Assembly: GCA_009993005.1 (NCBI GenBank)
Contig: JAACUH010000056.1
Span: 1-64,000, forward strand
Length of the DNA: 64,000 bases
Direction: 5' to 3'
From: Rhodobacterales bacterium
GTDB taxonomy: Bacteria > Pseudomonadota > Alphaproteobacteria > Rhodobacterales > Rhodobacteraceae
Each line of letters opens with the position of its first letter. Position 1 is the first letter of the stretch. The translations under genes were made by a program, and so were the position numbers. Below are positions 6,551-34,551 of the stretch, one piece after another. The notes beneath the pieces were generated by a model. That model saw only the letters and a list, made by a program, of their open reading frames with translations, did not search any database and was not told where the DNA came from.

Positions 6551-7597
6551 TCAATCCATCGGGCGCCGCTTGCGGATCAACTGGCTGATCGACACCGCCA
6601 CCACCAGCCCACCGCCATAAAAGAGGTTCTGCACAAAGCTCGGCACGCCGAGAAAGTTCAACCCCATGATCCCGGTGGACAGAAAGAACACCGCGACAAA
6701 AGCGCCCGGCGCGTTGAAGCGGCCGGGGTAGAGGGTGGTCGATCCGAGGAAGGCCGCAGCAAAGGCCGGCAGCAGGAATGACAGCGCCGAGGACGGGTCC
6801 GCCGCGCCGCGCATGCCGGTGTAGAGGACACCCGCCAGGGCCGCGATGGCCCCGCTCGCGATCAGTGATCCGGCGCGCACGCGGGCAACATTGACGCCCG
6901 ACAGCCGCGCCACCTCGCGCCCTCGCCCCACAAAGAGGAGTCTTCTGCCCAAAGCGGTGTGCTGGAACGCGTACCAGATGACCACGGTCAGGGCCGTCGC
7001 GAACCAGAAGGCCAGCGGGATGCCGAGGAACCTTGTGAGGATCACGACATTGACGAGGTCCATCGACACGCCCGAAATCACGTTCGACCCCGAGATCCAC
7101 AGCACGATCCCGTTGATGAAATAGCCCGTGCCCAGTGTCACGATCAGCGAATGGATACCGAACCACAGCACAAAGACCGCGTTCACCGCCCCCACCGCCA
7201 TGCCCGCCAGCAGTGCCATCACGATCGCGCCTTCGATGCTCCACCCCATGCGCACGTTCAGCACCGCGATCAGCATCGAGGCGAGCGCCATGGTCGATGC
7301 GACCGAGAGGTCGAAGTCTCCGGTTGTCAGCGGGATCAGCAGCCCCAGCGTCAGCACCACGATCATCGCTGTCGAGCCGAACATGACCGCGTAGGAATTC
7401 CAGGCGAACATCTGGTCGGGCTTGAACCAGCCCAACACCAGGATCAGCAGCACCCAGGCCACCAGCAGGCCGAAGCGTTCCGCCATCTCGGCGGTGCGGG
7501 GGCGCTGGGCGGGGGGGGGCAGGCGGCCTTCAAAGGCGCGCAGGCGGGCCTCGAGGTCGGCGATGCGGCGGTCGTAGTCTGCGGTGGATTGGGTCAT
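6551..7597 (-). CDS. CUT2-type ABC transporter permease
   Basis: A 348-residue inner-membrane permease of the RbsC/BPD_transp_2 family. After about 35 polar, coiled residues (DYDRRIADLEARLRAFEGRL) come eight to ten hydrophobic segments, beginning FGLLVAWVLLILVLGWF. GLLIPLTTGDFDLSV matches the conserved segment of CUT2 permeases, which import monosaccharides, nucleosides and related small molecules. The ATG overlaps the stop of the ATPase gene. It is the last gene of the catabolic operon and probably acts with the ATPase and binding protein directly upstream. The charged N-terminal extension is longer than usual. Confidence 0.9.
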   Translation of the reverse strand: MTQSTADYDRRIADLEARLRAFEGRLPPPAQRPRTAEMAERFGLLVAWVLLILVLGWFKPDQMFAWNSYAVMFGSTAMIVVLTLGLLIPLTTGDFDLSVASTMALASMLIAVLNVRMGWSIEGAIVMALLAGMAVGAVNAVFVLWFGIHSLIVTLGTGYFINGIVLWISGSNVISGVSMDLVNVVILTRFLGIPLAFWFATALTVVIWYAFQHTALGRRLLFVGRGREVARLSGVNVARVRAGSLIASGAIAALAGVLYTGMRGAADPSSALSFLLPAFAAAFLGSTTLYPGRFNAPGAFVAVFFLSTGIMGLNFLGVPSFVQNLFYGGGLVVAVSISQLIRKRRPMD

Positions 7598-9141
7598 GCC
7601 GGGCTCCGCTCGGGCAGGGATGTGGACCGGAAGCAGGCCTCGGCGATGCGGTCCTTGGTCAGGTCGGCGCCGGTCAGTTCCGTCAGGATCTGCCCGCGCG
7701 AGAACACCAGCACCCGGTGGCACAGCTGCGCGAGCTGTTCGTAATCGGTCGAGCCGATCAGCACACAGGCGCCGCCTGATGCTGCACGGTCGAGCGCGTC
7801 CCAGATGTCCTGCCGCGCACCGACATCGACGCCCTGCGTCGGCTCATCGAGCAGCAGGAGCTGCGGCTCTATCTGCAACCACTTGGCCAACAACGCCTTT
7901 TGCGCATTGCCACCGGACAGGGCCGAGAGCGGAAGCGCCGGCAGGTTGGGCTTCACCCCCGCCTGCGCGCCGAGCTGCGCTGCATGGCTGTTGATGTCGC
8001 GCGACAGGAGCGCGAGCCCGCGCTTGAGCCGCCCCAGCACCGGCAGGCCGACATTGTCGCCCACCGGCAAAGAGCCGACACCGGCCGCGCCCAGCCGGTC
8101 GGCGGGCAGATAGACGATCCCGCGCGCCAGCGCCGCCTGCGGCTCCATCCCCGACAGCGGCAGCGCCCGGCCCGCGATGCGCAGCCGCCCCGCCCTGGCC
8201 CGCCGCGCACCGTAAAGCAGCGCCGGCACCGCGTCATAGCCGGCGCCGATCAGCCCGGTCAGGCCCAGGATCTCACCCGGCGCGATGTCCAGCGTCACCG
8301 GCCCGACGCCCGGCCCGGCCAGCCCTTCGACCTGAACGGCGGGGGCGGCGGCGGGGCGCGCCTTGGCCGCGCCGCCATAGGCGGACATGCTGCGGCCGAT
8401 GATGCGCTCTACAAAGGCGTCATGCGAGGTCCGGGTCGTCACCACCGTGTCGATCAGCTTTCCGTCGCGCAGGATCGTGGCGCGGTCCGTGATCTCGCGC
8501 ACCTCGTCCACGTCATGGCTCACGAAGATCACGCTCGCGCCCTCGGCCACGGTGGCGCGCACGAGGCGGAACAGTTGTTCGACGCCCGCGCGCGGCAGAA
8601 AGGGGGTGGGCTCATCCAGCACCAGCACGCCGGGTTCGCGCGAGGCGCCGCGCAGGTCCTCGACCGCGCGCACGATGGCGAGCAGCGCCTGCTGCACCGG
8701 CGAGAGGCGCGCCACCTCGGCGCGCGGGTCGAGCGCGAGGTCATAGCGGGCAAAGACCGCCGCCGCGCTGTCATGCTCGGCCTGCCAGTCGATGCGCCAG
8801 CGGCTCGCCGTGGCGAGCGTGCCCAGCCGCAGGTTTTCCGTCACCGAGAGGGACGGAATCAGCCCCAGGTGCTGATGGACAAAGGCGAGGCCCAGCGCGC
8901 GCACTCTGGGCCCCGGAATGGGCAAGGGCGCGAGGCGGCCGTAAAGGCGCACCTCTGCCCCGGGTTCCGGCGTGTGGAACCCCGCCAGCACCTTGATCAG
9001 CGTGGATTTGCCCGACCCGTTCGAGCCGAGCAAGCCATGCACCTCGCCCCGCGCGACGCTGAGCGCCACGCCGTCGAGCGCCAGCGCGCCGCCGAACCTC
9101 TTGGACAGGTTCGAAATCTGGAGCGCTGGCGCGGTGGTCAC
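7594..9141 (-). CDS. CUT2-type ABC transporter, tandem ATP-binding protein
   Basis: A 515-residue protein with two fused ABC domains, as in RbsA. The first domain has an intact Walker A (GSNGSGKST near residue 40) and LVLDEPTPFL as Walker B. The second has a degenerate Walker A (GLIGAGYDA), a full signature LSGGNAQKALLAKW and Walker B LLLLDEPTQGVD; such asymmetry is normal for this family. The start is a GTG at 9141 whose bases overlap the stop of the binding-protein gene (GTGA), so translation is coupled. It powers the importer together with the permease downstream. Confidence 0.92.
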   Translation of the reverse strand: MTTAPALQISNLSKRFGGALALDGVALSVARGEVHGLLGSNGSGKSTLIKVLAGFHTPEPGAEVRLYGRLAPLPIPGPRVRALGLAFVHQHLGLIPSLSVTENLRLGTLATASRWRIDWQAEHDSAAAVFARYDLALDPRAEVARLSPVQQALLAIVRAVEDLRGASREPGVLVLDEPTPFLPRAGVEQLFRLVRATVAEGASVIFVSHDVDEVREITDRATILRDGKLIDTVVTTRTSHDAFVERIIGRSMSAYGGAAKARPAAAPAVQVEGLAGPGVGPVTLDIAPGEILGLTGLIGAGYDAVPALLYGARRARAGRLRIAGRALPLSGMEPQAALARGIVYLPADRLGAAGVGSLPVGDNVGLPVLGRLKRGLALLSRDINSHAAQLGAQAGVKPNLPALPLSALSGGNAQKALLAKWLQIEPQLLLLDEPTQGVDVGARQDIWDALDRAASGGACVLIGSTDYEQLAQLCHRVLVFSRGQILTELTGADLTKDRIAEACFRSTSLPERSPA

Positions 9142-10220
9142 TCGATACCCCAGAGCGCGGTAAAGCCCGAGATGAAGGTATCGCCATAGCCGTCGTTGTA
9201 GTTTGCGGGCATGCCGGCGGTCGCCACATTCTCGTCGGTAAAGATATAGGCGGGCGTGTTGAGCACCGTCACCGGCGGCAGGCCGCACAGGACGCGCATA
9301 TTGGCGTCAACGCCCGCCATGCCGACCCAGCCGAGGCTTTCGCCCACGACCATCTCGATGATGTCGCCGTCGCGCATCATGTCGAGCACGAAGGGCGTGC
9401 CGTTGTAGGACACCATCTTGGCCGAGGATCCCGAGATCTGGATCGCGGGGGCGATGAACTGCGCCATCGAGTCGTAGACCGGCAGGACGTAGTTGATCGA
9501 CGGATCGGCGAGCAGCGCGTTTTGCACCGCTGACTGGCCCAGCGTCGCCCAGTCGTTGACGGGCACGTTGATGTAGGTCGTCTTGCAGTCGGGGCAGTTT
9601 TCGGCGAGGTAGCCGATGATCGCGTCGCGCAGCGGGGCCGTGGGCGGGATCTCGTCGGGGCCGAGCACCAGCGCATTGACCTTGCCCTCGGTCTGCACCA
9701 TCGCCCAGGCGGCAATGATATGGCCGAATGTCACGTAGTCGGTATTGGCCGCGCCATCCATGAAAGCGGCGGTTTCCTGCGTGGTGGCATCCCACAGGTG
9801 GGTCGCCGTGACCTTGATCCCCGCCGCCTGCGCCTCGCCGATCTGGGGGGCGAGCATTTCGGCGGGGATGCCGCCTTGCAGGTCGATCAGGTCATACCCT
9901 TCGGCCATGGCGGTGTTGATGCCCTGGATCCACTGGGTCGGGTCCATCTGCGTGTCCCAGTTGCGCAGGTTGAAGCCGACGATCTCGGCCGCCTGCGACA
10001 TCCCCGCCGAGATTGCGGCGTTGAACGGGTTGGCGTTGGTCAGCGGCACCACGAACATGGATTTGTCGGCCATGCAGGCGCGTGCGTCAAAGGGGTCGCC
10101 GGGCGCCTCGAAGGCGGGCAGGGCGCTGTATTGCGCGACCAGCGCGCGGGCGGCGTCCATATCGGCGAGGGCAGGGCTGGCGAACAGCGCCAGCGTGGCC
10201 GCAGAGGCAAGGTATTTCAT
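9138..10220 (-). CDS. Periplasmic substrate-binding protein of CUT2-type ABC transporter
   Basis: A 360-residue protein with a cleavable signal peptide (MKYLASAATLALFASPALA, cleavage near residue 19) and a periplasmic-binding-protein type I fold. The segment GFNLRNWDTQMDPTQWIQGI resembles sugar/autoinducer-binding homologues. Cysteines (ENCPDC and others) could form periplasmic disulfides. Its start lies four bases after the stop of the cysteine-hydrolase gene, tying the importer to the amide-hydrolysing enzymes. The ligand is probably the cyclic amide handled by those enzymes rather than a sugar; this is inferred from context. Confidence 0.88.
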   Translation of the reverse strand: MKYLASAATLALFASPALADMDAARALVAQYSALPAFEAPGDPFDARACMADKSMFVVPLTNANPFNAAISAGMSQAAEIVGFNLRNWDTQMDPTQWIQGINTAMAEGYDLIDLQGGIPAEMLAPQIGEAQAAGIKVTATHLWDATTQETAAFMDGAANTDYVTFGHIIAAWAMVQTEGKVNALVLGPDEIPPTAPLRDAIIGYLAENCPDCKTTYINVPVNDWATLGQSAVQNALLADPSINYVLPVYDSMAQFIAPAIQISGSSAKMVSYNGTPFVLDMMRDGDIIEMVVGESLGWVGMAGVDANMRVLCGLPPVTVLNTPAYIFTDENVATAGMPANYNDGYGDTFISGFTALWGIE

Positions 10221-10224
10221 TGTC

Positions 10225-10866
10225 TTACTCCCGTTTGGTTGTTGTCAGGTAGGCCGCCGCCTCGCTTGTGCTCAGGAGGTCGGCGTATTTGGCACTCATG
10301 TCGAACAGGTTCGCCTGATGCGGGGCCTCGGCGCGGTCGCCGCAGGCGTCGGCGACCACGAGGGTGACAAAGCCATGGCTCATCGCATCCACACAGGTCG
10401 CGCGCACGCAACCGCTCGTGGTGAGCCCGGTCAGCAGCACGCAATCGACGCGCATCGCGGTGAGCGTGGCGGCAAGCGATGTGCCGAAAAAGGCGCTGGG
10501 ATATTGCTTGGTGATCACGATCTCGTTGTCGCGGGGCGCGAGGGCGGGGGTGATGTCGCCCAGCGGGTTTCCTTTTTCGAACACTTTCAGCGGTGGTGCC
10601 TTGCGAAAGAAGACGCCTCCATCTGCACCGCCTTGCACATATCGAACCTCGCTATAGATCACGGGCGTGCCGGTCGCGCGCGCCGTGGCAAGCAGGCGCG
10701 CAGCGTTGTCGCGCGCTGCGGCACAGCCCTCGGCCCCGAAAAGGGGCGAGGCCGGGTCGAAATAGGCCTGTGCGAAATCCACCAGCAGCAGGGCGGGGCG
10801 TGTGCCCCGCACCTGCGGCGTGTGATAGCCCGCGCGGGCATAATTCTGGCCCAGATCCTCGGTCAT
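10225..10866 (-). CDS. Isochorismatase-family cysteine hydrolase, N-carbamoylsarcosine-amidase-like
   Basis: A 213-residue cytoplasmic amidohydrolase with the complete family triad: Asp30 (LLLVDFAQAY), Lys120 (IVITKQYPSAF) and Cys153 (TTSGCVRAT). The C-terminal segment ACGDRAE...NLFDM resembles N-carbamoylsarcosine amidohydrolase more than isochorismatase or nicotinamidase, judged from memory of those families. That enzyme cleaves an N-carbamoyl group to amine, CO2 and ammonia. Its ATG overlaps the stop of the hydantoinase B gene, so it is made together with the enzyme that would supply an N-carbamoyl product. The true substrate could be another carbamoyl or amide compound. Confidence 0.85.
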   Translation of the reverse strand: MTEDLGQNYARAGYHTPQVRGTRPALLLVDFAQAYFDPASPLFGAEGCAAARDNAARLLATARATGTPVIYSEVRYVQGGADGGVFFRKAPPLKVFEKGNPLGDITPALAPRDNEIVITKQYPSAFFGTSLAATLTAMRVDCVLLTGLTTSGCVRATCVDAMSHGFVTLVVADACGDRAEAPHQANLFDMSAKYADLLSTSEAAAYLTTTKRE

Positions 10867-12749
10867 TCGGCGGCGACCCTGGCGCCAAAGAACACCGGAT
10901 CGACCGGCGGCTCGAAGCCGGTTTCCTTTTTCGCCCGCGCCTTGAGTTCGCGCAGGTTCTCAAAGCCGCGATCAAACAGTTTCGTCTCACCCCGCGCGCG
11001 GGCCATCTCGGCGCGCAGTTTCTCGGTCGCGCGGGCATCGACCGCGCCGGACGCGATCACCACGCCGTAGCGGCGCGCGCCATTGCTGCTGACCAGCCCG
11101 CGTTCGACATCGGCAAGCACCTTGTCCGCCGGGCGCTGCAACGGGTCGCCCCAGCCGCCACCGCCCCAGGTGTTGAAATGCAGCATGTCGCCGGGGCCGA
11201 CCTTGATGCGGTCGCATTTGCTCGGGATATTCTCGCGGGTGCCATCCGCGCGCACCAGCGTCTTGGTCGAGCGCATGCCCGGCTCGCCGCCGTTGACGCC
11301 CCAGGGGTAGGTGAGCCAGCGGTCGTCGTGGATGGAAATCTCGCCCGCCTCGAGCATTTCATAGGCGATGGTGATCCCGTTGCCGCCGCGGTGCAGGCCC
11401 GCGCCGCCGCTGTCGGGGATGGTCGCGTAGGTGCGGATGCGCAGCGGGAAATAGGCCTCGAGAAACTCGTTGGGCACATTGGTAAAGGCCGGCCACATCG
11501 AATGCCCGTCCGGCCCGTCGCCCACCGGCCGCCCCGGCACCCCGCCAAAGCCGATCTGGAACAGCTGGAACCATTTCCCGTCGCGGTCAAAGCCCGAATA
11601 CATGAAATGCGGACTGTCCGAGAAGCCGGCCGCGTTGAGCGCATCGGGCGCGCCCTGGCCCAGAAGGCCCCCCATCAGGTCAAAGATGCGGCCCAGCATA
11701 TGGGTGCGGCAGGACAGGGCCGCGGGTTTCTTGGGCTTGAGGATGCAGCCTGCGGGGATGCGCACGTCAACAAGGTCGTAAAAGCCGTCGTTGAACAGGA
11801 TCTGCGGGTCGAAGAGGTTGATCGTGAAGGCCCCGAAGAACATCTTGAACATCTCTTCGTTCAGCAGGAAATTGATCGAGGAGAGCGACTGCGGGTCGGA
11901 CCCGGCAAAGTCGAAGATCGCCAGATCGCCCTCGCGCCACATGGTGCAGGCGATCTTGAACGGGCCGTTGCCCTGCCCGTCGTCGTCGATCCAGTCCTCG
12001 AAATGGCTGGCCTTGTCGCGGCCTTCGGGGATGAACATCTTGATGATGGCGCCCATCGCGAGCTTGTTGCGGTCGAGCATGTCCTGCATCGCGGAGATAT
12101 AGCTATCCACCCCGAAACGCTGGATATTCTCGCGCACACGGCGCTCTGCCAGCCGCAGCGAGGCGATGATGGCGAGGAAGTCGGACTTGTTCCATTCGGG
12201 CATCCGCGTGTTGGCGAGCAGGATGTTGAACAGTTCGGCGTTGAGCTCGCCCTTGCGGTAGATCTTGGTGGGGGGGATGATCAGCCCTTCCTCATAGATC
12301 ATCTTGGCATCCGTGGGCAGCGAGCCCGGCACCTTGCCGCCGACATCGGTCATATGGCCGAACATGGCCGACCAGGACACCAGGCGCCCTTCGTGAAAGA
12401 TCGGCATCATCAGCAGCCAGTCGTTGAGGTGGCTCACCGCGCCGCCGCAGGAATAGGGATCGTTGGTCAGGAAGATGTCGCCATCCTCGATCGTGCCCTC
12501 GTAACCCTGCATGAAGCCGTAGAGGAAAGAGCCGAACTGACCCACGACCATCTTGCCCTGCTCGTTGGCGATCATCGGGAAGGCGTCGTGCTGTTCGCGG
12601 ATGCCGGGCGACATGGCGGTGCGAAAGAGGACTGCGTCCATCTCGGCGCGCGCGTTGCGCAGGGCGTTTTCCACGATGTCGAGCGTGATCGGATCGACGG
12701 TCACGCGGGTGAACGGGGTGGTGTTGGTCTGGATGATCTTGGCGGGCAT
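10863..12749 (-). CDS. Hydantoinase/oxoprolinase-type enzyme, subunit B (HyuB family)
   Basis: A 628-residue protein of the HyuB family, the partner subunit of ATP-dependent hydantoinases, 5-oxoprolinase and acetone carboxylase. It begins with the family pattern (DPITLDIVENALRNARAEMD) and contains GDIFLTNDPYSCGGAVSHLND and PGMRSTKTLVR. No signal peptide is present. With subunit A, encoded upstream, it would hydrolyse a cyclic amide ring at the cost of ATP. It overlaps the amidase gene by four bases. A 119-base gap with a hairpin and a dispersed element separates it from subunit A. Confidence 0.92.
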   Translation of the reverse strand: MPAKIIQTNTTPFTRVTVDPITLDIVENALRNARAEMDAVLFRTAMSPGIREQHDAFPMIANEQGKMVVGQFGSFLYGFMQGYEGTIEDGDIFLTNDPYSCGGAVSHLNDWLLMMPIFHEGRLVSWSAMFGHMTDVGGKVPGSLPTDAKMIYEEGLIIPPTKIYRKGELNAELFNILLANTRMPEWNKSDFLAIIASLRLAERRVRENIQRFGVDSYISAMQDMLDRNKLAMGAIIKMFIPEGRDKASHFEDWIDDDGQGNGPFKIACTMWREGDLAIFDFAGSDPQSLSSINFLLNEEMFKMFFGAFTINLFDPQILFNDGFYDLVDVRIPAGCILKPKKPAALSCRTHMLGRIFDLMGGLLGQGAPDALNAAGFSDSPHFMYSGFDRDGKWFQLFQIGFGGVPGRPVGDGPDGHSMWPAFTNVPNEFLEAYFPLRIRTYATIPDSGGAGLHRGGNGITIAYEMLEAGEISIHDDRWLTYPWGVNGGEPGMRSTKTLVRADGTRENIPSKCDRIKVGPGDMLHFNTWGGGGWGDPLQRPADKVLADVERGLVSSNGARRYGVVIASGAVDARATEKLRAEMARARGETKLFDRGFENLRELKARAKKETGFEPPVDPVFFGARVAAE

Positions 12750-12780
12750 CAGGGGCGACCTTTTGCTGTGGGGCGGGAGG

Positions 12781-12814
12781 GCAGGCGGCGAGGGGGGCGT
12801 TGCCCCCCGCCTGC
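12781..12814. other. Strong hairpin in the gap between hydantoinase A and B genes
   Basis: Inner stem GGGGGGC/GCCCCCC (12792-12798 with 12802-12808), loop GTT, and outer stem GCAGGCG/CGCCTGC (12781-12787 with 12808-12814). It lies inside the operon directly before a dispersed element and could attenuate transcription or set the B:A mRNA ratio. No U-tract follows on the minus strand. Confidence 0.55.
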
Positions 12815-12857
12815 GGCTCCCCCCAGGATATTTGGGGCAAGATGAAGCGGGGCGGGG
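12814..12857 (+). repeat. Dispersed TATTT element, copy C
   Basis: CGGCTCCCCCCAGG then ATATTTGGGGCAAGATGAAG and CGGGGCGGGG. It is plus-oriented although both flanking genes are on the minus strand, so orientation does not always follow the neighbouring gene. Confidence 0.85.
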
Positions 12858-12868
12858 CGCGCCATGGT

Positions 12869-15061
12869 CTAGCGGGCCTGCGCGTGGCCGGCGGGCCAGA
12901 TCAGGATATTGCCGACCTTGTCCACCACGCCGGTATGGCCGGGCAGGATGAGCGAGGTGCTGTCCATCTCGGTGACGATGGCGGGGCCGGCAATGCGGTT
13001 GCCGGATCTGAGCCGCGCGCGGTCATAGATCGTGGCCTCGTGCCAGCCGCCATCGGCATAGACGCGTGTCTTTTGCACCGCGGCGGCGCTGGCATCGGCG
13101 CCGCCTGTGCCGTAGTCGCGGCCGATGAACGGTTTTTCGGCGCCCTGCACCACGGCGCGCAGGCCGACGAGTTCGTGCGGGGCGTCGAGCGCGAAGGTGA
13201 AGAGCTGTTCGTGTTCGCGGTCGAAGCGGGCGGCGATGCCGGCGATGCCTTCGCGGGCAAAGGTATCGGGGGCCATGTCGATGGTGAGCTTCATCCCCTG
13301 GCCCTGGTAGCGGATATCGACCTGGTAGAGGGTGTCCTGTTCGCTGCGCGGCACGCCTTCGCCTTCGAGATCCTCGGCGGCGCGGGTGGCCAGCGCGCGC
13401 AGCATGTCGCCCAGTTCGCGGTCGCTGGTGGCGGCGGTGGTGGTCACGAAGGTCTGGCTCGCCTCGTTGCGCAGGCGCGTGGTGGCGTCGCCATAGGCGC
13501 AGAGCACGCCGGGGCCCGGCGGGATGATCGCAGGCCAGGCGTTGATGAGGCGCGAGAGCGCGTTGGCATGCAGCGGGCCCGCGCCGCCAAAGCCGATCAG
13601 TGCAAAGTCGCGCGGGTCGTAGCCCTGTTCGACCGACACCAGCCGCAGCGCACCGCACATGTTCTCGTTGACGATGCGCACGATGCCTTCGGCCGCGGTC
13701 TCGAGGTCCACGCCGAGGCCATCGGCGATCTTTTGCACGGCCGTCACGGCGAGGTCGCGGCGGATCTCCATGTCGCCGCCCAGTTTCGCGTCGGACGGCA
13801 GGTAGCCCAGCACGACATTGGCGTCGGTGACGGTGGGCGCCTCGCCGCCCTTGTCATAGGCGGCGGGGCCGGGCACGGCGCCGGCCGATTGCGGGCCGAC
13901 GCGCAGCGCCTTGGTCAGGTCGGGCACATAGGCGATGGAGCCGCCGCCCGCGCCCACGGTGCGCACGTCGATCGAGGGCGCGCGCACGATGACGTCAGCC
14001 ACGCGCGTCTCGCGCCGGGTGCGCGCGATGCCCGCCTCGATCAGCGCCACATCGGTGGAGGTGCCGCCCATGTCGAAGGTCAGGAGGTTGCCGAAGCCCG
14101 CGTTCTTGGCGATCCAGAGCGCGCCGGACACGCCGCCGGCGGGGCCCGACATCAGCAGGTTGACCGGCTGGTCCATCGCCGCCTGTGCCGAGGACAGCCC
14201 GCCGTCAGAGCGCAGGATCTGCAGCATCACATCGCCCATCTTGGCCTTGAGCTCGCGTTGCAGATTGGCCACGTATTTGGCCACCACGGGGCGGACGTAG
14301 GAATTGACCACCGTCGTCTCGGTGCGCTCGTATTCATACATCTCGGGCATGACCTGCGACGAGGTCGAGACCGGGATGCCCGGCATCACCTCGGCCGCGA
14401 TCGCCGCCACGCGGGCTTCGTGCACGCCCGAGACGTAGCCATTGAAGAGCGAGATGGTCAGCGCCTCGATCCCGCGGTCGCGCAGTTTCGCCAGATCGCG
14501 GCGCAGCGCGGCCTCGTCGAGGGGGACCAGCACATGGCCTTTGGCGTCGAGCCGCTCATCGGCCTCGATGGTGTCCTCGAGGCGCGCCAGTGGCAGCGAC
14601 TTGTTCCAGATCACCCAGCCGCCAAGGCCGCCGGGGACATAGGAGCGCGCGATCTGCAGCGTGTCGCGGTAGCCCTTGGTCGTGACCAGACCCACACGCG
14701 CGCCCGACCCGGTGAGCACGGTATTGGTGGCGACCGTGGTGCCATGCATCACCTCGGATATCTCCGAGGGCTTGATCCCCGCCTCGCGGCAGATCTTTTC
14801 GATGCCGTTGAGCACGCCGACAGAGCTGTCGGCGGGGGTCGAGGGGACCTTGGCGGTAAAGATGCGCCCGCCCGCCTCATCGAGCAGCAGCAGGTCGGTA
14901 AAGGTGCCGCCGACATCGACGCCCAGCCGCAGCCCGCCCGCAGGCCGCGCGCGCCGCGCCATCGGGGCGGGGACTGCGGCGGTTTCCACGCGGGCGAGGC
15001 GCGCCTCGATCTCGGCCAACCGCGCCTCGTAGGTGCGGATCAGGTCTTCGGTCTTGCTCAT
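12869..15061 (-). CDS. Hydantoinase/oxoprolinase-type enzyme, subunit A (HyuA family)
   Basis: A 730-residue ATP-dependent hydantoinase subunit. The actin-like phosphate-binding motif LGVDVGGTFTDLLLLD is normally at the very N-terminus but here begins near residue 44, after a charged, heptad-like extension (TYEARLAEIEARLARVE). Further family segments are VMHGTTVATNT, FDMGGTSTDVALI and LIGFGGAGPLHA. It should form a heteromer with the HyuB-type subunit encoded downstream. The start was placed at MSKTEDL; an in-frame ATG 15 bases upstream (15076) is equally possible. The N-terminal extension is atypical and may mediate assembly with the coiled-coil protein encoded just before it. Confidence 0.9.
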   Translation of the reverse strand: MSKTEDLIRTYEARLAEIEARLARVETAAVPAPMARRARPAGGLRLGVDVGGTFTDLLLLDEAGGRIFTAKVPSTPADSSVGVLNGIEKICREAGIKPSEISEVMHGTTVATNTVLTGSGARVGLVTTKGYRDTLQIARSYVPGGLGGWVIWNKSLPLARLEDTIEADERLDAKGHVLVPLDEAALRRDLAKLRDRGIEALTISLFNGYVSGVHEARVAAIAAEVMPGIPVSTSSQVMPEMYEYERTETTVVNSYVRPVVAKYVANLQRELKAKMGDVMLQILRSDGGLSSAQAAMDQPVNLLMSGPAGGVSGALWIAKNAGFGNLLTFDMGGTSTDVALIEAGIARTRRETRVADVIVRAPSIDVRTVGAGGGSIAYVPDLTKALRVGPQSAGAVPGPAAYDKGGEAPTVTDANVVLGYLPSDAKLGGDMEIRRDLAVTAVQKIADGLGVDLETAAEGIVRIVNENMCGALRLVSVEQGYDPRDFALIGFGGAGPLHANALSRLINAWPAIIPPGPGVLCAYGDATTRLRNEASQTFVTTTAATSDRELGDMLRALATRAAEDLEGEGVPRSEQDTLYQVDIRYQGQGMKLTIDMAPDTFAREGIAGIAARFDREHEQLFTFALDAPHELVGLRAVVQGAEKPFIGRDYGTGGADASAAAVQKTRVYADGGWHEATIYDRARLRSGNRIAGPAIVTEMDSTSLILPGHTGVVDKVGNILIWPAGHAQAR

Positions 15062-15083
15062 CTTCTTCTTTCCCATCCCCGTT

Positions 15084-15761
15084 TCAATTCCCCCGCCGGC
15101 CCGTGCCCAGCACCCTGGCGATCAGCCCCGGTGCGCGGCGGGTCTCGGCGGCCTTTTGCAATGCCTGTTCGGACAGGCTGAAGAGCCGGTCGAGTTGCGC
15201 GGCCTGCCCGTCAAGGGCGGCTTGTTTCGCCGCCGCGTCGGCCTTGAGCCGGGCGAGGTCGTCCTGCATCGCGCCGATGGTGCCGGTCGCGCGGTCGAGC
15301 AGGCCGATGGCGCGGTCGGCGGTGGCCTGCAGCGCGCTGGCGCGGGCCTCGGCCTCGTCGGCGGCAGCCAGCGCGCGGCCGGCGAGGTCGCCCAGCCGGT
15401 CGCGTTCGGCCACCGTCGCCTCGAGCGCCGCCGTGACGCGATCCAGCGCGTCGCCCTGCGCACCGGCCAGCGCCGTGAGGCGCGCGGTGAGCGCGGTGGC
15501 GTCCTCGAGGTCGGCCGACAGCTCTTCGATCTCGTCGAACAATGCGCCCATCAGCGCCTCGGGCGTGGCGGTGCCCGGCGTCGGGTCCTCGGCCGGCAGT
15601 GTCGCAAGGTCCACCCGCCAGCGCCCCTCGTTGTCGCGCCGCGCGGGCACGGCGCCCTTGGCGATGGCCTCGCGCAGTTTCAGTCGGCTGATGCCAAGTC
15701 GGGCGGCCGCCTCGGCCAGAGGCAGAAAGCTGTCGTTGCCGTCATGCCCGCCTGTTGCCAT
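15084..15761 (-). CDS. Unknown HTH-plus-coiled-coil protein in the hydantoinase operon
   Basis: A 225-residue protein with no confident family. Residues 12-50 (LPLAEAAARLGISRLKLREA...VPARRDNEGRWRVD) look like a winged helix-turn-helix of the excisionase/MerR type with a wing ending in RWRV. Residues 65-205 are a long Ala/Leu/Glu/Asp-rich helix with coiled-coil character, and the end is basic (RAPGLIARVLGTGRRGN). It starts four bases after the CoA-transferase stop and ends 22 bases before subunit A, so it is an operon member. It could be a local DNA-binding regulator or a scaffold; the sequence cannot decide. Confidence 0.7.
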   Translation of the reverse strand: MATGGHDGNDSFLPLAEAAARLGISRLKLREAIAKGAVPARRDNEGRWRVDLATLPAEDPTPGTATPEALMGALFDEIEELSADLEDATALTARLTALAGAQGDALDRVTAALEATVAERDRLGDLAGRALAAADEAEARASALQATADRAIGLLDRATGTIGAMQDDLARLKADAAAKQAALDGQAAQLDRLFSLSEQALQKAAETRRAPGLIARVLGTGRRGN

Positions 15762-15765
15762 GGCT

Positions 15766-16974
15766 CTAGATGATCCCGCGTGCGCGCCAGTCGGCGCGGG
15801 TGTCGGGGGCGATGCCGAGCAGGTCCATCACCTCTTCGGTATGCTCGCCCAGGTCAGGCCCGGCATGGCGCACGGCGCCCGGCGTGTCGGACAGGCGCGG
15901 CGCCACGTTCTGCATCTTGAGCATGCCGAAATCGCGGTGCGGCACATCGACGATGGCGTTTCGCGCCTTGAAATGCGGGTCGGCCAGCATGTCGGGCGCA
16001 GTGTAGATCAGCCCGCAGGGGACGCCGTTTTCATTGAGCAGCGCCTCGAGCGGAGCGAGGTCGATGGTGCGCGTCCAGTCGTTGATCAGCGCGTCAAGCT
16101 CGGGCTGCACCTCGCCCCGCGCGGCGTGGGTCGCATAGCGCGGGTCGGTGGCGAGTTCGGGCTGGCCCATGGCGGCGGCGAGCCGCTTGAACACCGTATC
16201 CTGATTGGCCGCGATCAGCAGCAATTTGCCATCCTTCGTGTCGAACACGTTGGACGGGCTCACATTGGGCAGGATCGGGCCGGTGCGTTCGCGCACATAG
16301 CCGGCCGCGGCATATTCGGTGATCGTGCTTTCCATCATCGCCAGCACCGCCTCGTAGATCGCGCTGTCCACGATCTGCCCCTTGCCGGTGCGTTCGCGCG
16401 CATGCAGCGCCATCATCGCGCCCAGACAGGCATAGGTGGCGGCAAGCTCGTCACCGATGGAAATCCCCATGCGCGAGGGCTGGGTCGAGGGGTCGCCCAC
16501 CACATAGCGCAGCCCGCCCATCGCCTCGCCGATAGAGCCATAGCCGGCGCGGCTGGAATAGGGGCCGGTCTGCCCGAAGCCCGTCACCCGCACCATGATG
16601 AGGCGCGGGTTGATCGCCTTGAGGTCGTCATAGCCGAGGTTCCAGCGCTCCATCGTGCCGGGGCGGAAGTTCTCGATCAGGATGTCGGCATCGCGCACCA
16701 GATCGCGGATCACCTGCTGCCCTTCGGAGGTGCGCAGGTTGAGCGTCAGCGACTTCTTGTTGCGCGCTACCACCGGCCACCACAGCGATTTGCCATAAGG
16801 CTTTTCCCGGCCCCAGACGCGCATCGGGTCGCCTTCGCCGGGCTGTTCGCATTTGATCACCTCGGCGCCGAAATCGGCGAGAAGCTGGCCGCAGAACGGC
16901 CCTGCCAGAAGCTGGCCCATCTCGATCACGCGGATGTCGGTGAGTGGCCCCTGACGGGGTGGCGGTGTGGTCAT
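15766..16974 (-). CDS. Class III CoA-transferase (CaiB/BaiF family)
   Basis: A 402-residue CoA-transferase of the FRC/CaiB family, which moves CoA between carboxylic acids via an aspartyl-CoA intermediate. Family segments are RVIEMGQLLAGPFCGQLLADFGAEVIKCE-like at residues 15-43, RNKKSLTLNL, ENFRPGTMERW and GFGQTGPYS. Asp175 in SIGDELAATYACLG lies where the catalytic aspartate is expected. It is the first gene of the minus-strand operon, divergent from an HMG-CoA-lyase-like gene. Together these suggest CoA activation of a carboxylic acid followed by carbon-carbon cleavage. The acid is unknown. Confidence 0.9.
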   Translation of the reverse strand: MTTPPPRQGPLTDIRVIEMGQLLAGPFCGQLLADFGAEVIKCEQPGEGDPMRVWGREKPYGKSLWWPVVARNKKSLTLNLRTSEGQQVIRDLVRDADILIENFRPGTMERWNLGYDDLKAINPRLIMVRVTGFGQTGPYSSRAGYGSIGEAMGGLRYVVGDPSTQPSRMGISIGDELAATYACLGAMMALHARERTGKGQIVDSAIYEAVLAMMESTITEYAAAGYVRERTGPILPNVSPSNVFDTKDGKLLLIAANQDTVFKRLAAAMGQPELATDPRYATHAARGEVQPELDALINDWTRTIDLAPLEALLNENGVPCGLIYTAPDMLADPHFKARNAIVDVPHRDFGMLKMQNVAPRLSDTPGAVRHAGPDLGEHTEEVMDLLGIAPDTRADWRARGII

Positions 16975-17051
16975 GGTCTCTCCCCGGTGGGGGCGCTGCG
17001 CAATTATCTGTCGCGCTTTGGCCCCGAGTCTTCATCTTGTTGCTTTGCAGG

Positions 17052-17065
17052 ATACATTGATGTAT
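17052..17065. promoter_or_regulatory. Palindrome in the divergent promoter region, candidate GntR operator
   Basis: ATACAT-TG-ATGTAT, a perfect inverted repeat with 2-base centre, flanked by TTTGC (17044-17048) and GCAAA (17066-17070). It sits midway between the CoA-transferase start (16974) and the lyase start (17095), where one repressor could control both directions. FCD-type GntR regulators commonly bind such short palindromes. Confidence 0.55.
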
Positions 17066-17094
17066 GCAAAAGAAAAGCCCCGGGAGTCGAAATC

Positions 17095-18006
17095 ATGATG
17101 AAAACCCCTGAAAGCGTGGAAATCGTAGAGGTTTCGGCGCGTGACGGTATACAGAATGAACAGACGATCCTGTCAGTGGATACAAAACTGGCACTGATCG
17201 AACGGGCCATCGCGGCAGGGGTGCGGCGGCTCGAAGTCACCAGTTTCGTCAATCCGGCGCGGGTGCCGCAGATGGCTGATGCGGATGTGCTCGCGTCCCG
17301 CCTGCCGCGCGGGGCGGCGCGCTACATCGGCCTCGCGCTCAACCAGCGCGGGTTCGACCGGGCGGTGGCGGCGCGGCTCGACGAGGTGAATTTCGTGATC
17401 GTGGCGTCCGATACCTTCAGCCAGCGCAATCAGGGGATGAGCACGCAGAGCGGCATCGCCGCCTGGGCCGAGGTCGCGCAGGCGGCGCGCGGGCGGATCG
17501 GGACCGGCGTCACCATCGGCGCGGCCTTTGGCTGCCCGTTCGAGGGCGAGGTGCCGCTGGCCCGCCTCATGCGCGTGGTCGAGGGGGTGATGGCCCAGGC
17601 GCCGGACGAAATCGCGCTGGCCGATACCATCGGTGTCGCCACACCCCGCGATGTGACCGAACGGGTGGGCGCGCTGCGCGCGGCCTTTCCGCAGGTGCGG
17701 CTGCGGCTGCATTTCCACAACACGCGCAACACCGGCATCGCCAATGCCTGGGCCGGGCTGATGGCCGGTGCGCAGGTGCTCGACGCCTCGCTCGGCGGCG
17801 TGGGCGGCTGCCCCTTTGCGCCGCGCGCGACCGGCAATATCGCGACCGAGGATCTGGTCTATCTGCTCGACCGCTCGGGCGTGCGCACGGGGCTCGACCT
17901 TGCCGGCTGCATCGCGGCGGCGGACTGGCTCGAGGCGCAACTGGGGCACGCCGTGCCGGGGCAGGTGATGAAGGCGGGCGGCTTTCCCGCGCCGAGGGCC
18001 GCGTGA
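17095..18006 (+). CDS. Hydroxymethylglutaryl-CoA lyase family protein
   Basis: A 303-residue TIM-barrel lyase of the HMGL-like family, which cleaves beta-hydroxyacyl-CoA substrates to acetyl-CoA plus a keto compound. Motifs are VSARDGIQNEQ (catalytic Arg-Asp), EVTSFVNPARVPQMAD, LHFHNTRNTGIAN (metal-binding His-x-His-Asn) and GGVGGCPFAPRATGN, with the active-site cysteine of the family. The first ATG at 17095 has GGGAG nine bases upstream; a second ATG follows directly. It is divergent from the CoA-transferase operon and overlaps the GntR gene by four bases. Isolated from leucine genes, its substrate is probably a product of the local pathway rather than HMG-CoA. Confidence 0.88.
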   Translation: MMKTPESVEIVEVSARDGIQNEQTILSVDTKLALIERAIAAGVRRLEVTSFVNPARVPQMADADVLASRLPRGAARYIGLALNQRGFDRAVAARLDEVNFVIVASDTFSQRNQGMSTQSGIAAWAEVAQAARGRIGTGVTIGAAFGCPFEGEVPLARLMRVVEGVMAQAPDEIALADTIGVATPRDVTERVGALRAAFPQVRLRLHFHNTRNTGIANAWAGLMAGAQVLDASLGGVGGCPFAPRATGNIATEDLVYLLDRSGVRTGLDLAGCIAAADWLEAQLGHAVPGQVMKAGGFPAPRAA

Positions 18007-18683
18007 TGCGCGGCGAGGAGGACCGGCCCGCCAATGCCGCCGACAGCGCCTATCGCGCGATCCGAACCGATATCCTCGACGGCCGGCTCGCCGCCGATGT
18101 GCGGCTGACCGAGGTCACGCTCGCCGACCGGCTGGGCCTGTCGCGCACGCCGGTGCGCGAGGCGGTGAAACGGCTGCTGATCGAGGGGTTTCTGACCCGC
18201 GCGCCGGGCGAAGGGCTGCGCGTGACGGGGCTGAATGCGGGTGAGGTGCAGCAGATCTTTCACATCCGCATGATGCTGGAAAGCTATGGCGCGCGCCGCG
18301 CGGCCGAGCTTGCCACGCCCGCCGATTGTGCCGAGTTGCACCGGCTCGCGGCAGTGATGAGCGCCCGCACCCCGCCGCGTGAGCGGGCGGATTTCGACAT
18401 CATTTCAGAGGCCAACAGCGCCTTTCACCGCACCATCATGCAGGCCGCGCAGTCGCCCCGGCTCGCTGCGATGCTGTCGCTGGCGGTCAACCTCGGGCTC
18501 GTGCTGCGCACCTATCAGATGTATTCGGAACACGACATGATCCGCCAGTCACGCCACCACCATGACATCGCCGAGGCGATTTCAGCCCATGACCCCGACT
18601 GGGCCGAGGCCGCGATGCGCAACCATGTGCTGGCCGCCGCCGCCGTGGCGCAACGGCAGGGCCAGGGCCAGGGGCAGGAATAG
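18003..18683 (+). CDS. GntR-family regulator (FadR/FCD subfamily)
   Basis: A 226-residue transcription factor. The N-terminal winged helix (residues 12-75) contains ADRLGLSRTPVREAVKRLLIEG, the typical GntR recognition region. The C-terminal helical FCD ligand domain shows HIRMMLESYGARRAAEL and the His-rich SRHHHDIAEAI segment used for metal or carboxylate binding. The extreme C-terminus is a low-complexity QGQGQGQE run from a 6-base slippage repeat. It overlaps the lyase gene and probably senses an intermediate of the hydantoinase pathway, acting at the palindrome at 17052. Confidence 0.9.
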   Translation: MMRGEEDRPANAADSAYRAIRTDILDGRLAADVRLTEVTLADRLGLSRTPVREAVKRLLIEGFLTRAPGEGLRVTGLNAGEVQQIFHIRMMLESYGARRAAELATPADCAELHRLAAVMSARTPPRERADFDIISEANSAFHRTIMQAAQSPRLAAMLSLAVNLGLVLRTYQMYSEHDMIRQSRHHHDIAEAISAHDPDWAEAAMRNHVLAAAAVAQRQGQGQGQE

Positions 18684-28334: not shown

Positions 28335-29729
28335 TCAGTCCACCTGATAGGGCAACAGGCCGCGATGGTCGGGATCGACGCGCAACCGGCGTTCCAGCGG
28401 CGGCACCGCGCGCTGGTGGCAATCGCGGCGTTCGCAGATGCGGCAGGAGATGCCGATCGGCTCAAAGGCCGCCGGGCTGCCGGTATCGAGGTGGTCGGCA
28501 TAGACGATGTCGGGCGCATGGCGCACCTCGCAGCCCAGCCCGATGGCAAAGCGGCGCACAGGGGCATCGTAAGCGCCGCCCGACCGGCTGATGTCGCGCG
28601 CGAGACAGAAATAGCGCGCGCCGTCAGGGGTCTGCGCCAGTTGCCGCAGCCAGCGGCCTGGCGCCTCGAAGGCCTGATGCACGTTCCACAGCGGGCAGGC
28701 GCCGCCGTAGCGGGCGAATTGCAACGTGGTGGCCGAATGCCGCTTGGTGATCGTGCCGGCCGGATCGACGCGCACGAAAAAGAACGGGATGCCCTTGGCG
28801 CCGGGCCGCTGCAGCGTCGAGAGCCGGTGCGCGACCTGTTCGAGCGAGGCGCCAAAGCGGTCGGCCAGCCGTTCGAGGTCGTGACGCAGCGTGCGCGCGG
28901 CGTCCAGAAACCGGGCGTAGGGCATCAGCGCCGCCCCGGCAAAGTAGTTGGCCAGCCCCACCTTGGCGATGGCGCGCGCCTCGGGCGTCTGGAACCGGGC
29001 GAGGTCGAGCGTCGCCTCGAGCAGCCGGTCCTGCGTGAGCAGCGCCAGTTGCAGCAGCGTCTGGAAGGTCTGCGTGGCCGGTGCGGCGCGGCGCGACAGG
29101 GTCAGGTGGCGGCGCGTCGGGTCGTAATGGCGGATCGCGGCGCTGTCCTCGTGGCTGATCGTGACACCCTGGGCTGCGAGCGTGGCCGCCGCCGCCTGCG
29201 CGATGTCGCCGCCGGCACGGTCGGCGACATGCTCTGCCGCGCGGTCCACCGCGTCGAGGTAGTTGTCGCAATAGTGGAAAAAGTCGCGCACCTCTTCCCA
29301 GGGGCTGGGTTGCAGCCGCGCATCCTCGCGCCCCAGCGCCTCGTCGAGCGAGGCGAGGCGTTCGTGGGTCTGCCGGTAGGCGCGGTGCAGCGCGAGAAAG
29401 GCATGGGTCAGCGCAGGCGCGTTCGACGCCGCGAGCCGCAGGTCCGACAGCGGCGGGGTAGGGCCGGTAAACAGCGGATCGGCCAGCGCCTCGCGCATGT
29501 CGCTGACCAGCCGCGCCTCGTCGCCGGCCTGCAACTCGGTCACGTCAAAGCCGAATTCCTGCGCCAGCGCCAGCACCACGGCGGTGCTCACGGGGCGGTT
29601 GTTGTTCTCCATCTGGTTGAGATAGGGCAGCGACACGCCCAGCTTGTCGGCAAAGAGTTTCTGCGTGAGGCCGATGCGGCCGCGCATCTCGCGCAGCTTG
29701 ACCCCGGCATAGAGCTTCTGGACGGCCAT
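28335..29729 (-). CDS. pccR: Short-chain fatty acyl-CoA regulator PccR/ScfR family
   Basis: A 464-residue transcription factor. An N-terminal XRE helix-turn-helix (residues 8-65, GRIGLTQKLFADKLGVSLPYLNQMENNNRPVS region) is followed by a central helical domain with HEDSAAIRHYDPTRR and a C-terminal domain with cysteines (GACPLWNVH and SCRICERRDCHQ) typical of the RamB/ScfR group. In Rhodobacter sphaeroides PccR activates pccB for propionyl-CoA assimilation. Here pccB lies only 1.9 kb away, and both promoter regions contain TTTGCAAA-like boxes. I therefore infer a propionyl-CoA-responsive activator that also controls its own gene. Confidence 0.88.
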   Translation of the reverse strand: MAVQKLYAGVKLREMRGRIGLTQKLFADKLGVSLPYLNQMENNNRPVSTAVVLALAQEFGFDVTELQAGDEARLVSDMREALADPLFTGPTPPLSDLRLAASNAPALTHAFLALHRAYRQTHERLASLDEALGREDARLQPSPWEEVRDFFHYCDNYLDAVDRAAEHVADRAGGDIAQAAAATLAAQGVTISHEDSAAIRHYDPTRRHLTLSRRAAPATQTFQTLLQLALLTQDRLLEATLDLARFQTPEARAIAKVGLANYFAGAALMPYARFLDAARTLRHDLERLADRFGASLEQVAHRLSTLQRPGAKGIPFFFVRVDPAGTITKRHSATTLQFARYGGACPLWNVHQAFEAPGRWLRQLAQTPDGARYFCLARDISRSGGAYDAPVRRFAIGLGCEVRHAPDIVYADHLDTGSPAAFEPIGISCRICERRDCHQRAVPPLERRLRVDPDHRGLLPYQVD

Positions 29730-29738
29730 GGCGGCACC

Positions 29739-29788
29739 TTTGCGGATTAGCTGATGGCTTGGTCTAGCGCCTGCAAAGCCTGCTAATC
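29739..29788. promoter_or_regulatory. Candidate PccR boxes in the pccR promoter region
   Basis: TTTGCGGATTAGC (29739-29751) and TGCAAAGCCTGCTAATC (29772-29788) lie 10 to 59 bases upstream of the pccR start. On the minus strand the second reads GATTAGCAGGCTTTGCA, matching the AATTAGCnGATTTGCAAA units before pccB. The closeness to the start codon fits autoregulation. Confidence 0.6.
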
Positions 29789-29793
29789 AAGCC

Positions 29794-31008: not shown

Positions 31009-31056
31009 GCGCCAGACCTAGACCTGTGACGGGGCGGTGTCCATTCCCCCGCCACG

Positions 31057-31416
31057 TCAGCCGCGCGCAGGGAACTGCGCAAAAATGAACCATGCCCCCA
31101 GCGCGATGAAGGCAAAGCCGACGAGGTGATTCCACTTGACCGGCTCTTGCAGGTAGAACACCGAAAAGAGGACAAAGACCGTCAGGGTGATGACCTCCTG
31201 AATGGTCTTGAGCTGCGCTGCGCTGAAATGCCCGTGCCCGATCCGGTTGGCGGGCACCTGCAGGACATATTCAAAGAATGCGATGCCCCAGCTGATCAGG
31301 ATCACCGCGAACAGCGGCGCGGCCTTGTATTTCAGATGCCCGTACCAGGCGAAGGTCATGAACACATTCGAGACCAGCAGGAGGCCGATGGTAATCACGG
31401 GAACGGGAAGCTGCAT
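31057..31416 (-). CDS. DUF486 / DMT-like small membrane protein
   Basis: A 119-residue protein with four hydrophobic segments (PVITIGLLLVSNVFMTFAWYG, AVILISWGIAFFEYV, ITLTVFVLFSVFYL, LVGFAFIALGAWFIF), recognised as the DUF486 family related to small drug/metabolite transporters. The start MQLPVPVIT has GGAG upstream; an ATG 33 bases earlier adds an unlikely polar leader. Probably a dimeric inner-membrane carrier or a structural membrane protein. It is divergent from pccB across the PccR box region. Confidence 0.85.
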   Translation of the reverse strand: MQLPVPVITIGLLLVSNVFMTFAWYGHLKYKAAPLFAVILISWGIAFFEYVLQVPANRIGHGHFSAAQLKTIQEVITLTVFVLFSVFYLQEPVKWNHLVGFAFIALGAWFIFAQFPARG

Positions 31417-31482
31417 GGCGGGGCTCCGGGTGTGCGTCGCGGCTGTCATATGCGGGGCTATGGCATCTGCAAAGGGCCAGGA

Positions 31483-31532
31483 AATTAGCGGATTTGCAAA
31501 AAATGGATTCAGGTAATTAGCTGGATTGCAAA
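31483..31532 (+). promoter_or_regulatory. Two direct-repeat PccR boxes upstream of pccB
   Basis: Two 18-base units, AATTAGCGGATTTGCAAA (31483-31500) and AATTAGCTGGATTGCAAA (31515-31532), repeat with 32-base periodicity, about three helical turns, and a further TTAGC follows at 31533-31537. A weaker CTGCAAA lies at 31467-31473. TTTGCAAA is the known core of RamB/PccR sites. The array ends 70 bases before the pccB start. Confidence 0.75.
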
Positions 31533-31602
31533 TTAGCGCTTTCCGGCTTCTCTCGCCCCGGTTGGGCGCCTATGGTCGCGCAGGTTCGGGGAGGGGACGA
31601 CG

Positions 31603-33499: not shown

Positions 33500-33533
33500 T
33501 GCGCCGCCCACTCACAGGCGCAGGGGCGCGGTA

Positions 33534-34540: not shown

Positions 34541-34551
34541 GCAGGGGCCGC

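Follow-up and report, generated by a model that had tools for sequence, protein, structure and literature searches.

A ten-gene HyuAB cluster in a Rhodobacterales genome that might import and degrade a cyclic imide

HyuAB-type enzymes are, to our knowledge, common and mostly without an established substrate. In creatinine catabolism, an ATP-dependent N-methylhydantoinase is followed by N-carbamoylsarcosine amidase, and the anaerobic indoleacetate pathway combines a dioxindole-acetate hydrolase (IaaCE) with the coenzyme A (CoA) transferase IaaL. Cyclic imides are degraded by an imidase and a half-amidase, the known imidases being metal-dependent amidohydrolases that use no ATP. Nicotinate fermentation employs a dimethylmaleate hydratase together with a dimethylmalate lyase, and Chloroflexus a class III CoA-transferase together with an R-citramalyl-CoA lyase of the HMGL family. 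Here we describe a ten-gene cluster at positions 6551-18683 of a 64,000-nucleotide stretch (in the following the window, with a G + C content of 68%) that comprises positions 1 to 64,000 of contig JAACUH010000056.1 in assembly GCA_009993005.1 of a Rhodobacterales bacterium. Judging from sequence comparisons, there is about an even chance that this cluster serves to import and degrade a cyclic imide with a five-membered ring, or else a cyclic diacid amide close to it, an imide being the more likely ring type when compared to a hydantoin.

Eight genes of the cluster lie on the minus strand. They code for a CUT2-type ABC importer, consisting of a permease (6551..7597; BPD_transp_2, 98.2 bits) whose ATG at 7597 overlaps the stop of the ATPase gene, a two-domain ATPase (7594..9141; GTG start assumed; best NCBIfam model AraG-like with 326 bits, below the cut-off of 689) and a periplasmic solute-binding protein (9138..10220; Peripla_BP_4, 66.9 bits), for an isochorismatase-fold cysteine hydrolase proposed to be a half-amidase (10225..10866; Isochorismatase domain, 129.7 bits), for the subunits HyuB (10863..12749; Hydantoinase_B, 490.6 bits) and HyuA, the latter predicted to bind ATP (12869..15076; Hydant_A three-domain set, 299.8 bits plus the N- and C-terminal domains), for a protein with a winged helix-turn-helix (HTH) and a single helix of 143 residues, in the following called the rod protein and proposed to be a tether or a regulator (15084..15761; weak HTH_17/excisionase matches below cut-offs), and for a class III CoA-transferase (CaiB, 15766..16974; CoA_transf_3, 433.8 bits). 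Divergent from these, on the plus strand, are the genes for a hydroxymethylglutaryl (HMG)-CoA-lyase-family lyase (HMGL, 17098..18006; 286.2 bits with NCBIfam PRK05692, exceeding the cut-off of 246 for HMG-CoA lyase) and a GntR/FCD regulator (18003..18683; FCD 83.9 bits, GntR 55.7 bits). The genes named in the original prediction for this region are all found where it had placed them, with strong family matches and with the permease reaching 6551. Its eight-gene order, however, has to be extended to ten, the gene at 15084-15761 between the CoA-transferase and HyuA having been overlooked, and its description of coupled or near-coupled genes applies to the minus-strand operon but not to HyuA and HyuB, which are 119 bases apart.

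From this gene content we infer both the substrate and the order of steps. The CUT2 importer would take up the cyclic imide, and in an ATP-consuming reaction HyuAB would open its ring to a half-amide, from which the cysteine hydrolase might free ammonia, so that a dicarboxylic acid is left for conversion into a CoA thioester by the class III CoA-transferase. The HMGL-family lyase would then cleave an alkylmalyl-type 3-hydroxyacyl-CoA, the products being a 2-oxo acid and an acyl-CoA. For an unsaturated, maleimide-type imide a LeuCD-type hydratase would be required ahead of the lyase; some relatives carry LeuCD beside the cluster, and in the genome of the window the sole LeuCD would have to serve. 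We know of no combined imide pathway with a citramalate-type end.

With its Hydant_A_N, Hydantoinase_A and C-terminal domains and the adjacent HyuB, HyuA belongs by sequence to the HyuAB cyclic-amide hydrolases. The best PDB match of both subunits is the N-methylhydantoinase 7hk5 (445 bits for HyuA, and 224 bits for HyuB as opposed to at most 111 bits for acetophenone and acetone carboxylases). In line with the caprolactamase CapAB/5-oxoprolinase family, CapAB provides the best NCBIfam models for both subunits and 6yra ranks second in the PDB for both, but the scores (520.7 and 218.1 bits) are far under the curated cut-off of 1000. The cysteine hydrolase has the triad Asp30/Lys120/Cys153, as had been predicted and as is confirmed in the translation, as well as a TTSGCVRAT motif, which places it in the N-carbamoylsarcosine/maleamate amidase group. 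Its PDB scores are 155.7 bits for 3ot4/3uao, which are listed as putative isochorismatase and which we take to be the maleamate amidohydrolase NicF, and 152.1 bits for the N-carbamoylsarcosine amidohydrolase 26st, and these values are too close for similarity to decide between a half-amidase and a carbamoyl amidase. The CoA-transferase is assigned to class III by Pfam, its best NCBIfam model being succinate--glutarate CoA-transferase (299.2 bits, below the cut-off of 750), and the lyase has the RDG, HxH, GGCP and GN motifs. The importer has the CUT2 sugar-importer architecture of Peripla_BP_4, two-domain ATPase and BPD_transp_2 permease; its scores with all matching NCBIfam models for specific sugars lie far below cut-off, and the solute-binding protein is weakly similar (36 bits) to ribose-binding proteins. 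None of HyuA, HyuB and CaiB passes an equivalog model of a known pathway.

The cluster thus shares with creatinine catabolism two enzyme families encoded in neighbouring genes (homologues 7hk5 and 26st/1nba), but differs from it in that it includes a CoA-transferase and an HMGL or, in relatives, a lyase of the isocitrate lyase/phosphoenolpyruvate mutase (ICL/PEPM) family, and in that the resemblance of the hydrolase to 3ot4/3uao is just as strong; among the genes of the operon, neither creatinine deaminase nor sarcosine oxidase was seen. With the indoleacetate pathway it has in common that a class III CoA-transferase acts after a lactam hydrolase of the HyuAB type, but that pathway is not known to have either an isochorismatase-type amidase or an HMGL lyase. 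The proposed sequence from imide via half-amide to diacid is that of known imide degradation, except that the known imidases need no ATP whereas HyuAB is proposed to be ATP-driven here.

The conservation of the gene set was assessed in the best 80 of 444 related stretches, in which HyuB has a best-segment identity of 67-91% (the clade), and in 40 control loci, i.e., other HyuB loci chosen from the genomes of relatives, several of them from one genome. Several of the reference proteins came from clade loci, which favours the clade in these counts, truncation by contig ends, which affects many of the 80, is scored as a miss, near-duplicates such as L067/L070, L044/L049 and L050/L051 are included, and for L057-L059 the map is only partly covered; loci L171-L177 are outside both counts. 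Homologues of all ten genes are present in 12 of the 80 clade loci, and all but GntR are present in 15; the cluster is therefore not due to chance. Amongst 295 sampled genomes of the window's family, its own genome included, eight have a HyuB that is at least 83% identical.

In particular, homologues of the cysteine hydrolase are found in 61/80 clade but 1/40 control loci, where the latter figure refers to close homologues only and isochorismatase-family genes occur in at least three controls (L157, L159, L163). The association of lyase and transferase with hyuAB, which had been set beforehand as a point on which the prediction should stand or fall, is borne out by the presence of CaiB in 50/80 and of HMGL in 40/80 clade loci as opposed to 0/40 controls for either. 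Both together are found in 37/80 clade and again in none of the 40 control loci, and the CoA-dependent tail therefore belongs to the HyuAB clade. The CUT2 binding protein is present in 30/80 clade and 0/40 control loci, the CUT2 ATPase in 28/80 and 4/40, the four control matches being 25-32% identical and probably other ABC ATPases, and the rod protein in 20/80 and 0/40. Two further gene types are not enriched, namely the tripartite ATP-independent periplasmic (TRAP) importers that would have suggested a carboxylate (DctM, 5/80 clade versus 8/40 control loci) and FAD_binding_2 oxidoreductases (2/80 versus 3/40). The core stays linked in the rearranged loci L088-L092, of which L088-L091 are gammaproteobacterial by title, and on a Geobacillus plasmid, with LeuCD beyond an insertion sequence element. 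It is likewise kept together on a Novosphingobium plasmid and on an Acidiphilium plasmid, the latter with LeuCD and a flavin adenine dinucleotide (FAD) oxidoreductase upstream. On a Rubrobacter plasmid CaiB is linked to HyuAB without HMGL, and a haloarchaeal plasmid has the order HyuA-HyuB-isochorismatase-ICL/PEPM.

The nature of the product is suggested by an exchange of lyases. Of the 26 loci with a HyuB identity of about 80% or more, 16 carry CaiB and HMGL, three carry an ICL/PEPM-family lyase instead and none carries both, while seven, some of them cut, have neither system. Locus L034 is otherwise syntenic, with GntR, rod, HyuA, HyuB, hydrolase and importer genes being kept, and has an ICL/PEPM gene after the permease. 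For two ICL/PEPM members the best NCBIfam model is methylisocitrate lyase, with 252.7 and 268.4 bits below the cut-off of 354.4. The substrates of the methylisocitrate-lyase superfamily are 2-hydroxy diacids or triacids in their free form, those of HMGL the CoA esters of 3-hydroxy acids. An alkylmalate-type acid would be a product that both can handle, one of them after CoA activation. This narrows the product of the clade to one class of compounds and leaves a short list of substrates for testing. The Chloroflexus pair comprises the same two families as CaiB and HMGL and has an alkylmalate substrate, but it belongs to an autotrophic cycle without known amide chemistry. Several relatives of the operon resemble nicotinate fermentation in having a LeuCD-type hydratase and an ICL/PEPM lyase; there, however, the diacid is not known to derive from an imide, and the operon in the window has CaiB and HMGL instead.

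The LeuCD family hydrates alkylmaleates to alkylmalates, and alkylmaleic half-amides and imides would therefore be the natural upstream compounds, which fits HyuAB and a maleamate-amidase-like hydrolase. LeuCD is carried by the relatives L027 and L029, whose HyuB is 83% identical. In 12 of 12 genomes checked (those of 10 of the 14 clade LeuC loci and two control genomes) there are at least two LeuC matches, so that the LeuC of the cluster is an extra copy. The same combination recurs outside the clade: L171-L173, from the window's family and with a HyuB identity of 52-53%, each combine a CUT2 importer with LeuC, LeuD and ICL/PEPM, the hydrolase being present in two of the three, and a distant HyuAB clade (L157, L159) repeats the set of HyuAB, isochorismatase, ICL/PEPM and LeuCD. 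The combination therefore either arose more than once or is old. At L159:3951-17026, genes for a tautomerase-like protein, HyuB, HyuA, isochorismatase, ICL/PEPM and an FAD_binding_2 protein are divergent from those for GntR/UTRA, LeuC, LeuD and a TRAP importer.

A number of observations speak against the imide route as outlined. Besides the close resemblance of the hydrolase to N-carbamoylsarcosine amidohydrolase, these concern the linkage of the genes, since HyuAB occurs in Sphingomonas JE1 in the absence of hydrolase, CaiB and HMGL, and in Nitratireductor a 36% identical HyuB resides in a different gene setting. Both lyase systems co-occur in seven of the remaining 54 loci (7/80 overall) and are therefore not simple substitutes everywhere, and neither lyase route is present in 4 of the 14 clade loci with LeuC. 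Neither LeuC (14/80 clade versus 4/40 control loci, p 0.21) nor LeuD (13/80 versus 4/40, p 0.26) nor ICL/PEPM (19/80 versus 4/40, p 0.056) is significantly enriched, because four control loci carry LeuCD and ICL/PEPM, too. All four controls with LeuC also hold LeuD and ICL/PEPM, and the two of them that were scanned with Pfam (L157, L159) hold an isochorismatase, so that this module extends beyond the clade. Finally, the window-type operon is without LeuCD, and the genome of the window has two aconitase-family matches, one of which is the sole LeuC match and neither of which is near the operon; a second LeuC is present in 3/8 genomes with the operon and in 1/10 without it (the split gene of G009 being counted once). 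Hydration would then fall to the sole LeuCD of the window's genome, unless the compound is saturated when it is taken up.

The latter leads to an alternative in which the substrate is a saturated lactam or a 3-hydroxy-imide, e.g., a 3-alkylmalimide or an HMG-type imide, and a hydratase is not needed. It would account for the lack of LeuCD in the window-type operon and of a second copy in the genome, and it accords with a CoA-transferase that is nearest to glutarate/HMG-type diacid families and a lyase that passes the HMG-CoA lyase cut-off. However, LeuCD in L027 and L029 suggests an unsaturated intermediate at least there, and on balance we regard a saturated substrate as rather unlikely.

A similarly doubtful alternative is the one closest to the original prediction, according to which HyuAB opens a substituted hydantoin or an N-methylhydantoin-like ureide, the hydrolase removes the carbamoyl group and the resulting acid is passed on to the CoA-transferase and the lyase. 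That an imported compound is opened by HyuAB with ATP, hydrolysed at its amide, activated with CoA and cleaved by the lyase in a single route is supported at the level of gene content; the hydantoin ring and the removal of a carbamoyl group are less supported. It is true that the closest solved HyuAB is labelled N-methylhydantoinase, that the hydrolase scores well against N-carbamoylsarcosine amidohydrolase and that one relative is so annotated in PLSDB. Yet a maleamate-type amidase, if our naming of 3ot4/3uao is correct, matches the hydrolase equally well. Moreover, carbamoyl removal leaves an amine, which is not an obvious substrate of the CoA-transferase/lyase pair, and no family match among the operon genes indicates a deaminating enzyme, while the chemistry of the LeuCD and ICL/PEPM proteins in relatives and of HMGL is that of hydroxy or unsaturated diacids. 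As a stand-in for hydantoin racemase, an Asp/Glu-racemase-family protein from another HyuAB locus was compared; homologues were found in 0/80 clade and 0/40 control loci alike, and racemase linkage is therefore uninformative on this question.

Beyond the enzymes, which are all of known families, the part of the cluster that is most likely new is a module that might link HyuA to the importer. Residues 9-31 of HyuA (14984..15052, minus strand, TEDLIRTYEARLAEIEARLARVE) form an N-terminal helical tag that is followed by a variable linker, and residues 8-23 of the permease (7529..7576, minus strand, YDRRIADLEARLRAFE) form a tag of their own, with the same pattern in relatives. In the window, HyuA starts with MGKKKMSKTEDLIRTYEARLAEIEARLARVE, followed by a linker of nearly 20 residues ahead of the ATPase fold, and the permease starts with MTQSTADYDRRIADLEARLRAFE; both tags have a leading Tyr and then an identical 4-3 hydrophobic spacing as in heptad helices. 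Across the 24 loci with a tagged HyuA, window included, the linkers measure 15-33 residues, and conservation extends to positions outside the search pattern, with Asp/Glu at -6 (23/24) and -5 (24/24), Leu at -4 (19/24), Ile/Val at -3 (23/24) and Glu at +15 (23/24). In ten aligned permeases Tyr8, Arg11 and Glu16 are invariant, and the permease tag is found in 0/30 control permeases, of which about one third are CUT2 by eye and the others branched-chain or different types.

The distribution of the tags follows that of the rod protein. HyuA tag and rod gene agree in all 67 loci scored (jointly present in 23, jointly absent from 44), out of 86 rows from which 12 cut loci had been excluded beforehand and seven more lacked a readable HyuA anchor; of the excluded loci, L041 has a rod gene with HyuA cut, and the ten others apart from L055 offer no contradiction. 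All three features, permease tag, HyuA tag and rod, are present in 20 loci and absent from three CUT2 loci (L035, L056, L087), L038 being two residues and L055 one residue off the strict start of the permease pattern and L021, L025 and L047 being unscored for HyuA. The loci outside this count agree, L174 having the rod and both tags and L171-L173 having a CUT2 importer but lacking the rod and the two tags alike; altogether, both tags are missing in six CUT2-bearing relatives without rod. On the HyuB tree, which was a quick build without a mixture model and gave long-branch warnings mainly for L098, HyuA tag and rod change six times each, and in the same direction in 5/5 independent pairs. In a survey that scored up to eight candidates per genome, the rod protein was found in 8/290 sampled genomes of the family, exactly those with a HyuB of at least 83% identity.

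In the AlphaFold2 model (predicted TM-score 0.44), the rod protein consists of a small HTH-like domain and a helix of 143 residues (67-209), with a predicted local distance difference test (pLDDT) value of 87-98 for residues 71-200, and this helix would be about 21 nm long if straight. In L041, L047 and L051 the homologues keep the long helix but apparently have no HTH part; L050, nearly identical to L051, is truncated where the locus ends. Both tags are present in L047, L050 and L051. The apparent lack of the HTH in these homologues favours a structural over a regulatory role, and HyuA might be kept at the importer by a coiled coil assembled from the tags and the rod. We give such a tether, proposed from sequence patterns, somewhat less than an even chance. 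What weighs against it is L055, excluded as cut, which has a HyuA tag but no rod gene within its 11.5 kb, the sign test, which with five independent pairs cannot drop below p 0.0625, and the poor AlphaFold2 model of the permease (mean pLDDT 52), which was not used. Docking of HyuA at the importer would imply that HyuAB catalyses the first step after uptake, and the tag/rod module would, if real, be a simple means of coupling uptake to the first catabolic step. We know of no described ABC importer of such a build, and a narrow literature search found none with an enzyme docked by tags.

Alternatively, the rod protein might act as a transcription factor that the tagged permease and HyuA sequester, i.e., as a flux sensor and no scaffold. 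Its small N-terminal domain has an HTH-like order of elements with a block pLDDT of 75-88, and an RRDNEG-type segment is conserved. However, the HTH part seems to be missing in L041, L047 and L051, although L047, L050 and L051 carry both tags, and the operon already has a GntR regulator, so that we deem this explanation improbable.

A second subgroup of HyuA (L060, L061, L064, L066, L068, L071, L075, L077, L080, L082, L084) has a different N-terminal helix of the W[FY][DE][SA]xL type and a long linker that, where its sequence was inspected, is often rich in Pro and Ala. In L053, L065, L066 and L071 HyuA is adjoined by members of a family that in L071 has an SPFH/Band_7 member, beside unnamed membrane proteins. 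This subgroup may represent another way of docking HyuA.

That HyuAB is instead a carboxylase similar to acetone or acetophenone carboxylase, to which superfamily it belongs and whose acetophenone carboxylase subunits it matches, is highly improbable, since these matches (309.6, 108.7 and 176 bits) are far below the NCBIfam cut-offs of 1500 (ApcC, ApcD) or 1250 (ApcA) and the best of them is below the 520.7 bits of caprolactamase, hydrolytic relatives outscore carboxylases in the PDB, and an amide hydrolase is the commonest partner after HyuA (61/80).

Returning to the imide reading, hematinic acid is conceivable as the substrate because methylisocitrate-lyase-like lyases, PrpR-like regulators (10/80 clade versus 0/40 control loci), PrpD-type genes (8/80 versus 1/40) and LeuCD suggest a carboxylated alkyl-maleic skeleton. 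That the cluster is a dedicated bacterial route for substituted maleimides, i.e., hematinic acid and its relatives from oxidised chlorophyll, heme or bilins, with HyuAB docked to the importer via the tags and a 20-nm rod and with a handover at the membrane, would require both parts to be correct and is a long shot when taken as a whole, the case for hematinic acid being one of chemical fit alone. Hematinic acid is listed among chlorophyll breakdown products in leaves (PMC7318184), where maleimides were undetected in the leaves studied but are cited from senescent leaves and lake sediments, and maleimides are treated as tetrapyrrole degradation products (PMC8669743). The passages available of the latter name no hydantoinase, CoA transferase or isochorismatase and no catabolic genes of such kind (PMC8669743). 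Among the papers listed by a literature search with thin coverage of subscription journals, none dealt with these combinations of genes or with genes for the catabolism of hematinic acid.

With respect to other elements in and around the operon, the divergent promoter contains a palindromic candidate operator (ATACATTGATGTAT, 17052..17065, no strand assigned), the conservation of which is weak: an equivalent is found only in L014, the other loci compared carrying different palindromes, and it therefore stays a weak candidate. The gap between HyuA and HyuB harbours one copy of a 22-base intergenic-type repeat (CTTCATCTTGCCCCAAATATCC), which occurs in the window in two exact copies and one with two mismatches (12826-12847, 49538-49559 and 1881-1902, all on the minus strand), with none expected by chance. 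At 28335-40377, 10-22 kb from the operon, the window codes for propionyl-CoA carboxylase subunits, methylmalonyl-CoA mutase and a short-chain acyl-CoA regulator, which may be able to use a propionyl-CoA product or else be unrelated. In other loci, a YrdC/Sua5-like gene is linked to the HyuAB clade (22/80 versus 0/40 controls, e.g., L087:13599-14339). In the proteobacterial loci L042, L045, L067, L070, L083, L085 and L093, HyuAB lies beside genes whose members in L067 are MMPL, DUF1302, DUF1329 and YCF48-like, perhaps an alternative transport system. In an alphaproteobacterial subgroup, a gene for a nitrile hydratase alpha subunit (identified by a scan of L052) is found near HyuAB of this clade at L052:14596-15177 and in four similar loci.

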